From: Bacteroidota bacterium
GTDB lineage: Bacteria > Bacteroidota > Ignavibacteria > UBA10030
Length of the DNA stretch: 61,520 nucleotides
NCBI GenBank assembly: GCA_021813905.1
Contig: JAKAJH010000012.1
Coordinates: 1-61,520 of the forward strand
Direction of reading: 5' to 3'
Shown here piece after piece: positions 21,456 through 61,451 of the stretch. The position numbers and the translations under genes are program-made. The first letter of the stretch is position 1, and each line of letters opens with the position of its first letter. Under the pieces are notes generated by a model that was not told where the DNA came from, ran no database searches, and saw only the letters and a program-made list of their open reading frames with translations.

Positions 21456-21750
21456 CAAAATCCGAAGAACCAAATCCGAAATCCGAAGGAAATTCGAAAT
21501 ACGAATGTTCAGAAGGCGGACCGTATTTCAATAAACATCAAGGCCATCACAGACACGAACCTCTCCCTCTACACGCTGCAAGGGAAATCCGAAGGAAATT
21601 CGAAATCCGAAGAACGAAATCTCAACGGCTGGAGCGCATCTCAAAGATCCACGTGGTCATCCCAACTCTGATCCTCTCCCCTCCCCTCGGACAGCGAGGG
21701 GAGGCCGGGAGGGGTGAAGCCTTGAGGGAAATCCGAAGGAAATGCGAATC
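21456..21750. repeat. Dispersed short repeats, AATCCGAA family
   Basis: AATCCGAA occurs near 21459, 21473, 21480, 21587, 21604 and 21729. Three of these carry the longer phrase AATCCGAAGGAAATTCGAA (last copy with G for T), near 21480, 21587 and 21729. Some copies are joined by GAAATACGAA or GAAATCCGAA. The units contain near-palindromic TTCGAA. It resembles mobile or slipped intergenic repeats; the open frames across it are low-complexity and not genes. Confidence 0.7.
21679..21703. repeat. GC-rich inverted repeat in the AATCCGAA region
   Basis: A perfect 10-base stem CCTCCCCTCG/CGAGGGGAGG with the 5-base loop GACAG. It is followed by GGGAGGGG rather than a T tract on the plus strand, so it is not a standard terminator. 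It resembles REP-like hairpins found between genes in many GC-rich genomes. It may end the DUF4175 transcript, which stops at 21834 on the minus strand. Confidence 0.5.
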
Positions 21751-47752: not shown

Positions 47753-47773
47753 CGCTGTGGGCTGGCGGGTGGG

Positions 47774-47821
47774 AATGTACGAGAGTACGAAAGTACGAAA
47801 GTACGAGCGTACGAGAGTACG
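47774..47821. repeat. 8-bp tandem repeat, AGTACGAA-like
   Basis: About six consecutive 8-base units, TGTACGAG, AGTACGAA, AGTACGAA, AGTACGAG, CGTACGAG, AGTACGGG, in the gap between the TPM gene and the converging HAD gene. A related phrase (CGAGAGTACGAGGATACGAAA read on the minus strand, in two parts) lies near 4542-4562. The unit is not a multiple of 3, so it is not coding. Confidence 0.85.
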
Positions 47822-58863: not shown

Positions 58864-58981
58864 GGGAGCTCCCGGGAGGGAAAATGAGCGTTTTTGTGGC
58901 AGAATAGACCACATTTGCTGGATGCATAGTACACCAATTGGGCGGGACATGCAAGCGATGGACATCGGGGTCAGTGACATG

Positions 58982-59012
58982 TTGACACTGGCAATTGGGT
59001 TCTGCATATTTG
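58982..59012 (+). promoter_or_regulatory. Possible promoter upstream of the 21-bp array
   Basis: TTG (58982-58984), 20-base spacer, CATATTTG (59005-59012), one mismatch from TAnnTTTG; also readable as TTGACA-N17-CATATT. If used, the transcript would carry the array in a leader of about 750 bases before the gene at 59771. Confidence 0.4.
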
Positions 59013-59333
59013 CAGGTGCGGTTCACGGGCTTCATCAGGTTAATCCGCATACACACGGTTATTGTTGACACTAGGGGAAGTACCTGAGTTAGGTTGTTTG
59101 CCGGGGAGTCTGGCTCTGTAGTGGGGATGGGGGTTTGATTCTCGAAGCGCACCAATTCGAGATACCGAATGCCGGTCGCAGGCCGGCCACACCAGTGAGA
59201 CTTCACCTTGAATTGTTTTTGTTGAGCTGACGTTCAGCTTGGACATCCCAAGGGACTTCCTATGCCCCAGTCTGCTCTGGCGTGGCGATTGTCGCTAGGC
59301 AGGACTACCATCATGCAGACACTCATCTATGAC

Positions 59334-59711
59334 GCAATGTCATGTGCTAGAGGAGCAGTGGACGTTTGCGCTGGCGCAATCGACTTTTTGGATAAAGCGA
59401 TGCGTTCTTGCGGGGAAGCAATGGCATTTTCATTTGCTGAAATGACAATTTCGTGTGCAGCAATGAACATTTTGGATGGAGCAATGGACTCTACAAGGCG
59501 GGCAACGGACGTTTCTGGTGAGGAAATGAAGATTCGCCGGCGCGAAACGCATTCTGCAGGTCGAGAAATGATCTTCCCATGTGGCGCAACAGGGATATGA
59601 CATGACGCAGTGTCTGAAGGTGAGACTGAAACCGTCACGCACGCTAACGCGATGATCTCCAAGGTGTAGGAAATGGACGGCCGGCTAGGGGCGACTTACT
59701 GTCGCTAGGAG
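59334..59711. repeat. Degenerate array of about 18 units with exact 21-bp period
   Basis: Starting at 59334 every 21st base begins a unit opening with G(C/A)(A/G)A(T/C)G, most often GCAATG or GAAATG, without one insertion or deletion through 59711. First bases: 59334, 59355, 59376, 59397, 59418, 59439, 59460, 59481, 59502, 59523, 59544, 59565, 59586, 59607, 59628, 59649, 59670, 59691. The first base is G in all 18. The remaining 15 bases vary widely, with a weak T-rich stretch near positions 10-13. On the minus strand the motif reads CATTGC or CATTTC. TGTCGCTAGG occurs just before (59290) and in the last unit (59700). Confidence 0.9.
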
Positions 59712-59770
59712 GGATTGGGGGAAGGGCCCACGGGAGCCGGCTAATACGAACCATCTCTCAGGAGGAAGTT

Positions 59771-60466
59771 ATGGCAAAGCACCTCGAAAACAAGCTCACG
59801 ATGTACAATGCGGTGCAGACTCTGTTGGATGCCAACGCACCCAAGGTGTCCGTAATCCCCGCATACGCGTCCACGGTTGCGCGTTTCAAGACCTGCGTTG
59901 CTGCTATACAGGGGAGGATGGTACAAATCAACCTGGCAACCAAAGGCAAAACAATGACGAAGTGGGCTGCTGAAGATGATCTTATCGCTTCAGTGCTCAG
60001 GATTAGTGCGGCAGTCTTCGCCAACGCGAGCGCTACCCGGAACATCGAGGTCAAGGCTCAGTCCGACGTTCGCGGGACTCATTTGCGGAGGCTGCGGGAT
60101 ATGGATCTGGTGGGGAAAGCCAGTGCGATACACTCAGTTGCCACAGAGTGGATTTCAGATCTGGAACCTTATGGCGTGAGCTTGGACGATCTGAATGGAC
60201 TCAAACTGAAGATCGAAACGTATGAGCGAACGGTTGGAGAACGGGATTCAGGCGTGAACGAACGTGTTGCGCTTCGGAAGACTATGCTCGAGCTCTTTGA
60301 TGAAGCGGACCGTCTTCTGGAAGAAGAAATAGACCGCATTATGGAGGTGGTAAAGAGCAAAGAGCTGCAATTCTTTGATGCGTACCGGTCCGCGAGGCTG
60401 ATTCATGAGATGGGGGCGCCTCGCGTCGCAGAGAAGCCAGCCACAGAGCCAGCAGTCGCAAAGTAG
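59771..60466 (+). CDS. Protein of unknown function beside the 21-bp array
   Basis: A 231-residue, mostly helical soluble protein with no signal peptide or membrane segment. I recognise no domain. The N-terminus (KHLENKLTMYNAVQTLLDAN, APKVSVIPAYASTVARFKTC) looks like a helical bundle; the middle has VLRISAAVFANASATRN; the C-terminus is a long acidic helix (LFDEADRLLEEEIDRIMEVV) and a Pro/Ala tail (EKPATEPAVAK). AGGAGGAAG lies just before the ATG, a stronger ribosome site than most here. Base use is less GC-rich than in the core genes. The array directly upstream suggests a functional link, but this is only position. Confidence 0.75.
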   Translation: MAKHLENKLTMYNAVQTLLDANAPKVSVIPAYASTVARFKTCVAAIQGRMVQINLATKGKTMTKWAAEDDLIASVLRISAAVFANASATRNIEVKAQSDVRGTHLRRLRDMDLVGKASAIHSVATEWISDLEPYGVSLDDLNGLKLKIETYERTVGERDSGVNERVALRKTMLELFDEADRLLEEEIDRIMEVVKSKELQFFDAYRSARLIHEMGAPRVAEKPATEPAVAK

Positions 60467-60489
60467 CGCAGCGCTCCCTCTGCGCCATC

Positions 60490-60550
60490 GCGCCCCGCTG
60501 CCACTTCATGCAAATTCTACCCCGCGGCATTGAGGATGGTGGCGGGGCGC
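60490..60550. repeat. Inverted repeat downstream of the unknown gene
   Basis: GCGCCCCGC-TG-CCAC (60490-60504) can pair with GTGGCGGGGCGC (60539-60550), a 12-base stem with a 2-base bulge around a 34-base loop. No T tract follows, so it is not a standard terminator. The rest of the gap to 60675 shows nothing. Confidence 0.45.
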
Positions 60551-60674
60551 AGTTCTGTCTTGTCAGACAGACGGGTTCAGTATACGGGCTGGTAGGACTA
60601 CTGTACGTGCAGACAAGCCGCGGAATTCAAAACAATGCTTTTGGGGCCGTCGGATCAACGTGGATCCAATTTGG

Positions 60675-61394
60675 CTACAACAGGAAGAGATTCTGTTGCG
60701 CATCATTACGCAGCCGCCACTTGTCACTGCCAACGCGCTCGCCCAAATCCTCGAGCACGCTGAGAACTGTTTGATCCTCTGGTGTGATGCCGTTCTTCAG
60801 GAGCGGCATGATTGCCATTACGATCTCATCGAATGTTGGATCGTGTCGCTCACGCTCCATGCGGCGCAGATAGCTTAGAAGGTAGAAACGCACGCGCAAT
60901 CTTATATCGATATGCGTTTTGAATTTCCCGCCGGTTCGAAGTGTGTATCTTTGGCTTTGGGCGTCATAATCAAAGTTTTGCATAAGAAGAGGGGTCAAAT
61001 CAGAGTACTCCCGTTTCAATAGGTCGAGGAATCCGAGTTCCAGTCCTTTGATGATTAACTCATCATTGATCTGTTCTAGCGTTGCGCCCCCGTCCTTTGC
61101 AATTATGCCTTCAATCGTTTGCACGACGATGCTGGCGACATCCACACCCAGATGAGCTCTCATTATGGTCTTTGGGTTTGGGACCTTACGGAAGTTGATG
61201 ATTAACTGACCCGATAGTACTGTGAATGGGTGCTGTCTCTTCTTGAAACTTGTCTGGCCATTCTTCTGAGGTACAGCACCTACGTACTCAAAACCGCAAC
61301 TTTCGGCCGTTTCGATAATAAGATGCCAAAACTCGGGATCCTTGTGCGCGAATACGAATGAGAGCCATCTGTCGAACTTCAGAACGCGATACAT
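60675..61394 (-). pseudogene. DNA methyltransferase, C-terminal fragment cut off by an insertion sequence
   Basis: About 239 residues from MYRVLKFDRWLSFVFAHKDP on. This segment, with EFWHLIIETAESCGFEYVGA, QKNGQTSFKKRQHPFTVLSG and QLIINFRKV, resembles the region after the catalytic motif in adenine/cytosine-N4 DNA methyltransferases. The catalytic (D/N)PPY and SAM-binding motifs are missing. The frame opens only at about 61437, just after the end of an IS3-type transposase, so the 5' part has been lost or separated. An in-frame TTG at 61415 gives a slightly longer start. Base composition is visibly AT-richer than the window. The methyltransferase call is from pattern memory; a complete family match was not possible. 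Confidence 0.6.
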
Positions 61395-61451
61395 GTAGTG
61401 CTCCCACAAAAACAAGACAGATTTATGACCGTGAAGGTTTAGAGTCGTCGG

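Follow-up and report, generated by a model that had tools for sequence, protein, structure and literature searches.

Iterons, which occur at the replication origins of plasmids, are helix-phased direct repeats of about 20–22 bp that are bound by a neighboring Rep protein. REP elements are intergenic palindromes tied to a cognate RAYT transposase gene. In type II partition systems, an array of short sites (parC) lies beside the gene for its binder, and ParR binds the parC of its own family but not those of other families (PMC9426499). The small protein BldC forms cooperative head-to-tail multimers on direct DNA repeats, at sites of varying length (PMC5859096). Within Bacteroidota, an intergenic tandem array is represented by BrickBuilt, a minisatellite MITE of Porphyromonas gingivalis (PMC4596501) that has a 23-nt unit, subunits termed leader and tail, and inverted repeats at its ends, and is present in many copies in one species.

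The stretch of Bacteroidota DNA analyzed here in its entirety (61,520 nucleotides; hereafter the window) carries a tandem array directly upstream of a putative binder gene. This arrangement recalls that of parC/ParR and is present at 64 of 91 loci of the gene family. Unlike parC/ParR/ParM, however, the loci are chromosomal and have no plasmid matches. Moreover, no actin-like ParM ATPase is present in the operon, and no conserved neighbor gene was found in the flanks of about 100 family loci. No RHH fold was recognized among the fold matches listed for the family protein, and every member keeps the 21-bp period with the sequence left free. Iterons differ in that here there is neither a Rep protein nor a plasmid context, arrays comprise 4–36 units, and the unit is not conserved within the family. 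An iteron-controlled replicon was rejected on the absence of an adjacent Rep initiator, of any Pfam or NCBIfam family above cut-off and of conserved neighbors. BldC is MerR-like, whereas the protein described here is a helical bundle without a recognizable DNA-binding domain, and for BrickBuilt, unlike the window-type arrays, no tie to a gene family is described. In mode of action, the analogues are parC/ParR and BldC multimers, with the defining parts of both missing here. A limited search of the open-access literature returned no description of such an array-gene module.

The array and gene of the window

The features of the locus are as follows.

58982..59012, + strand: promoter-like match TTGACA-N17-CATATT, continuing TG; the only one upstream of the array on that strand
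59262..59600, + strand: 112-codon open frame over units 1–13, judged incidental rather than a gene on the basis of coding tests
59334..59711, + strand: array of 21-bp period with 18 units in register; the core GMAAYG forms the first six bases of units (units 1–13, 59334–59606, strong; units 14–18 weaker)
59760..59765, + strand: AGGAGG, a Shine-Dalgarno-like site of the 59771 gene, as read from the sequence
59771..60466, + strand: gene for a helical protein of 231 aa, from an unnamed family that occurs together with such arrays

A sequence-only reading of the window had claimed a 21-bp periodic array in which a hexamer recurs in about 18 units with exact register. Comparison with 2000 dinucleotide shuffles bears this out, with a lag-21 identity across 59334–59711 of 0.457 against 0.255 ± 0.024 (z 8.3; shuffle maximum 0.359). 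Besides lag 21, only lags 42, 63 and 84 are high, and the region is the top lag-21 stretch within the 61.5-kb window. GMAAYG is exact in 10 of the 18 units, carries one mismatch in 7 and two in the last (59691). Units 1–13 agree with the full 21-bp consensus GCAATGGACTTTTCAGGTGGA at 10–16 of 21 positions. Agreement in units 14–18 amounts to 6–10 of 21 positions overall, and it is mainly the hexamer that is kept (mean 5.0 of 6, versus at most 2.8 in any other phase). The accompanying remark that the spacers vary almost freely was slightly too strong, as columns 9–12 and 18–19, outside the hexamer, are also biased. A pattern of three in-register hexamers, with up to two mismatches allowed, occurs nine times in the 3.08-Mb genome, always within this array, against 0 control matches.

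One promoter-like match was found upstream of the array where 1.2 are expected by chance, and this weak candidate would place the array within a leader of roughly 750 nt. An Rfam covariance-model scan of 58900–60800 gave no match up to E 1. A CRISPR array was rejected on the grounds that the 21-bp unit leaves no spacer of protospacer length and that no neighbor genes recur. Other repeats in the window include three separate clusters of GAAATCCGAAG/GGAAATTCGAA words (21458–21498, 21583–21612 and 21727–21748), apparently intergenic, and a short run of GTACGAGA/GTACGAAA octamers at 47773–47821, soon after a glycine-rich, coding-like stretch.

The predicted structure of the 231-aa product is all-helical (pLDDT 89.8), with residues 215–231 forming a disordered tail. 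A conserved C-terminal motif lies around residues 201–215 (FFDAYRSARLIHEMG), corresponding to ARVIKDLG-x-RHR in the family. Pfam yielded nothing above cut-off for this product, and searches with Pfam, NCBIfam, PHROGs and PADLOC gave nothing usable. The PDB holds no match by sequence and none with E below 0.001 by fold, and viral structures gave nothing by fold. Among solved structures, helical sensor domains of two modules (HBM-type; McpZ, McpS, TorS, PilJ) come nearest, with Z up to 9.4, which is within noise for helical bundles, and no ribbon-helix-helix fold is among the matches listed for the model. The next open reading frame downstream (60675–61415, − strand) encodes 246 aa; its residues 8–79 weakly resemble profiles of PglX/type II methyltransferases (E 0.00025), and it may be a remnant.

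Arrays across the protein family and a parallel set

Homologues of the window protein were found in 13 of 100 relatives; within the class the figure is 51 of 391 genomes and within the phylum 15 of 395, and the copy number in a single genome reaches seven or more. The family is distributed mainly in Bacteroidota (an Ignavibacteria-like class) and is patchy elsewhere. Its named relatives comprise Ignavibacteriae/Bacteroidota MAGs, one Spirochaetes MAG with two copies, one Verrucomicrobiaceae and one Bacteroidales MAG. A second copy in the window genome (G000:C11:1531-2208) shares 34% identity; the array about 520–640 bp upstream of it is weak and rich in GC (GGAAGCC..., best lag 42) and has several register shifts.

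Using a strict caller on both sides of the genes, we found a 21-bp array upstream of 64 of 91 family genes and downstream of 2 of 80, while other periods were called 0–7 times at family loci, which is noise level. In 70 of 94 loci, the leading lag of the upstream 1 kb was 21, 42 or 63. Calling on up to 1.3 kb yielded 67 arrays, whose median size is 15.6 units (roughly 4–36 units across loci) and whose median distance to the start codon is 161 bp (typically 100–300 bp). A more distant branch in other Bacteroidota, judged by reading, has strong 21/42/63 signals in about 21 of 29 loci.

Arrays are spread over the whole protein tree. The sole large array-less clade (11 rows, SH-aLRT 100) is without the conserved C-terminal motif after R207, and motif and array are associated over all rows (Fisher p 1.4e-5, uncorrected for phylogeny). 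This sub-clade (L104, L107, L108, L109, L116, L117 and relatives) lacks the basic C-terminal motif, includes many acidic tails and has several copies per genome. Outside it, about a fifth of family members have no callable array. Because several of the negative calls, such as L042, L082 and L095, are weak arrays or have 20–22-bp spacing, 64 of 91 is a lower bound. At L095 (G135:C29), from about −1050 to −700 relative to the gene, a 22-bp array is an exception to the 21-bp rule, and its units contain the palindrome-like ACACCGTCAATGGTGT. Since family loci share ancestry, these counts are not independent, and the spread over the tree and a second protein set (see below) serve as guards. The expectation that arrays accompany the family of the 59771 gene largely held, but GMAAYG itself is not general. 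That array and gene constitute a real functional module we regard as close to certain.

What is conserved across the arrays is period, place and strand, and not the sequence of the unit, which differs from locus to locus. Mean excess autocorrelation is 0.295, 0.267 and 0.244 at lags 21, 42 and 63, and about 0 at 7, 10 and 11, at any half turn and at all other lags; a half-turn (10/11) or 7-bp sub-period is thus absent. The gene-sense strand is purine-rich in 56 of 67 arrays. A weak strand-oriented pattern is common to the units, roughly A-A/T-A/T-G with T some six bases on (objective 128, versus 75.6 ± 2.2 for column-permuted and 108.9 ± 1.9 for random-strand units). A core with free spacers was rejected as the general design, the best seven columns scoring 0.493 versus 0.460 by chance; because information is only slightly clustered, the sharp hexamer of the window is not typical. 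The best reading is that helical spacing is the constrained property of the array.

Unit and protein diverge jointly. Unit similarity is 0.86 for proteins above 80% identity, 0.53 at 60–80% and about 0.3 below 35% (same strand; Mantel r 0.29 against a permuted maximum of 0.14). Within genomes, array and gene also duplicate jointly as one cassette, as L068 and L074 are homologous from −597 to +805, and L049 and L069 from −423 to +737, each pair in different flanks. Similarity between units is somewhat higher for neighbors (0.583 at distance 1, declining to 0.469 at distance 8), and local duplication turnover therefore occurs. In the genomes G000 and G038, sites of the window family were found only in the array and none in trans.

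A parallel set of arrays accompanies the DUF6261 (PF19775) genes of another Bacteroidota family, which have a best lag of 41 or 42 upstream in 22 of 27 cases and downstream in 1 of 26. One member of the window's protein family matches DUF6261 weakly (E 0.0056, the best of the family), short of the Pfam gathering cut-off, and the window protein is unmatched. Profile comparison of the two protein families gives a probability of 6%. The two sets have architecture in common but no demonstrable homology. Dyad symmetry is significant in 15 of 19 DUF6261 arrays and weak in those of the window family, and the 42-bp DUF6261 unit is apparently two 21-bp half-sites in inverted order. Site periods of 20.5 and 21 bp each come close to two helical turns, and 41 is not a multiple of 3. 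Given nearly loopless palindromes at 20.5–21 bp per site, duplex DNA would be the target.

In one genome (G748), the palindrome TTTCACTAATTAGTGAAA, with up to two mismatches, is confined to four clusters, in which steps of 42 bp or multiples of it prevail. One cluster precedes a DUF6261 gene and three are elsewhere; the two of these three that were inspected (L201 and L203) have no DUF6261 gene in their surroundings. Ordinary genes surround both clusters, one of which precedes a phosphoglycerate-mutase-like gene, and the clusters could represent a regulon or a dispersed element. Palindrome clusters that are also found without the gene are REP-like, but unlike REP/RAYT systems there is no transposase, spacing is fixed at 42 bp and the arrays are tandem. 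DUF6261 gave no match on plasmids and one weak match in phage records.

Coding tests show that the arrays are non-coding. Stops occur in every sense frame of 39 of 65 arrays, and conservation at codon positions 1, 2 and 3 of the most open frame is 0.639, 0.641 and 0.641. One sense frame is open in 26 of 65 arrays, compared with 12.7 ± 2.5 for column-permuted units, an excess that may stem from frequent AATG/GAA words and that leaves translation a small probability; on account of those words, reversed sequence is a biased control for open frames. Controls for both dyads and open frames permute columns and do not preserve dinucleotides.

A candidate binding platform and its alternatives

The best explanation that the evidence, all of it comparative, offers, held tentatively and at somewhat less than even confidence, is a two-part module with a cooperative array of double-stranded DNA sites and an adjoining binder. 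The array would act in cis as a platform of roughly 4–36 successive sites, one per 21 bp, and because 21 bp corresponds to two turns of B-DNA, all sites would lie on one face of the helix. The adjacent gene would encode a soluble helical-bundle protein that binds these sites cooperatively, such that an ordered nucleoprotein assembly forms at the gene's own leader or promoter. Joint divergence of array and protein would leave each cassette recognizing mainly itself. The outcome might be autoregulation or a local structure resembling those of compaction or segregation; autoregulation by cooperative binding seems likeliest, ahead of compaction, segregation and cassette spread.

Direct binding of the array by the encoded protein is somewhat more likely than not, whereas its binding the array as double-stranded DNA falls a little short of an even prospect. 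A binding platform had been among the readings proposed initially and is now the best supported, with the DUF6261 dyads favoring double-stranded DNA and binding itself deduced. Against it, the protein has no recognizable DNA-binding fold, its core is slightly acidic across the family (mean charge −3.2, with +2.0 for the tail), the dyad signal is weak in the window family, and for a fifth or so of members, not counting the array-less clade, no array could be called. The purine richness of the sense strand, moreover, fits RNA at least as well.

The main rival to a DNA platform is a leader RNA, in which the array is transcribed and the protein coats the purine-rich repeat RNA for translation feedback or as a scaffold, each protein occupying 21 nt of single-stranded RNA. 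Strand bias, the consistent orientation of array and gene, the position of the array between cassette start and gene, and the promoter-like site at 58982 are all in keeping with such a leader. Conversely, RNA folding of the arrays is no better than that of shuffled sequence (mean z −0.2) and reveals no consistent structure, the sense strand is not less folded than the antisense strand, and a test for a common promoter upstream of the arrays was not significant. In addition, the nearly loop-free dyad sites of DUF6261 are better suited to duplex DNA. On balance, we consider a leader RNA unlikely, if still a serious contender.

A selfish or mobile cassette, with the array as a recognition or replication site for spread like that of an iteron or REP-type element, would account for the scattered occurrence (51 of 391 class genomes, with as many as 7 copies), joint duplication into unrelated flanks, the lack of conserved neighbors and the gene-less DUF6261 site clusters in G748. 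However, no transposase, recombinase or relaxase lies within the cassette and no terminal repeats were seen by eye. Searches of plasmids, viral contigs and phage records also turned up no member of the window family, and few cassettes are closely related, making this reading improbable.

A functionless minisatellite, produced beside these genes by slippage or unequal exchange, is less plausible again. Although adjacent units are more alike and other short repeats lie near some family loci, slippage would not pick one period, side and strand over unrelated units. Nor would a by-product be expected to show the upstream preference seen tree-wide and repeated in the DUF6261 set, or, as in the window array, a lag of 84 as high as lag 21. 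The reading of the arrays as a decayed or living gene for a heptad-repeat (coiled-coil) protein, with 21 bp as seven codons, can be set aside as highly improbable: the window frame is open across 13 units and open frames exceed the permuted expectation, but most arrays are stopped in all sense frames, conservation is flat over codon positions, the two variable positions of the window core are second codon positions, and the parallel DUF6261 arrays include a period of 41 bp.

Array and gene thus point to an undescribed two-part genetic module, represented by about one hundred related loci. With the second set included, the chances appear evenly poised that these loci belong to a widespread class of Bacteroidota modules, unlike named systems, in which the period (21 bp, or 41/42 bp in the second set) is selected and the unit sequence drifts with its cognate helical-bundle protein, giving self-recognizing pairs of DNA array and protein that form an ordered nucleoprotein structure. 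Two families of unassigned function are now linked to a defined non-coding partner, in a rare case of geometry being conserved rather than sequence. The diverging pairs of array and protein amount to a natural library for the co-evolution of protein and DNA (or protein and RNA), and with sites two turns apart the mechanism is open to direct test.
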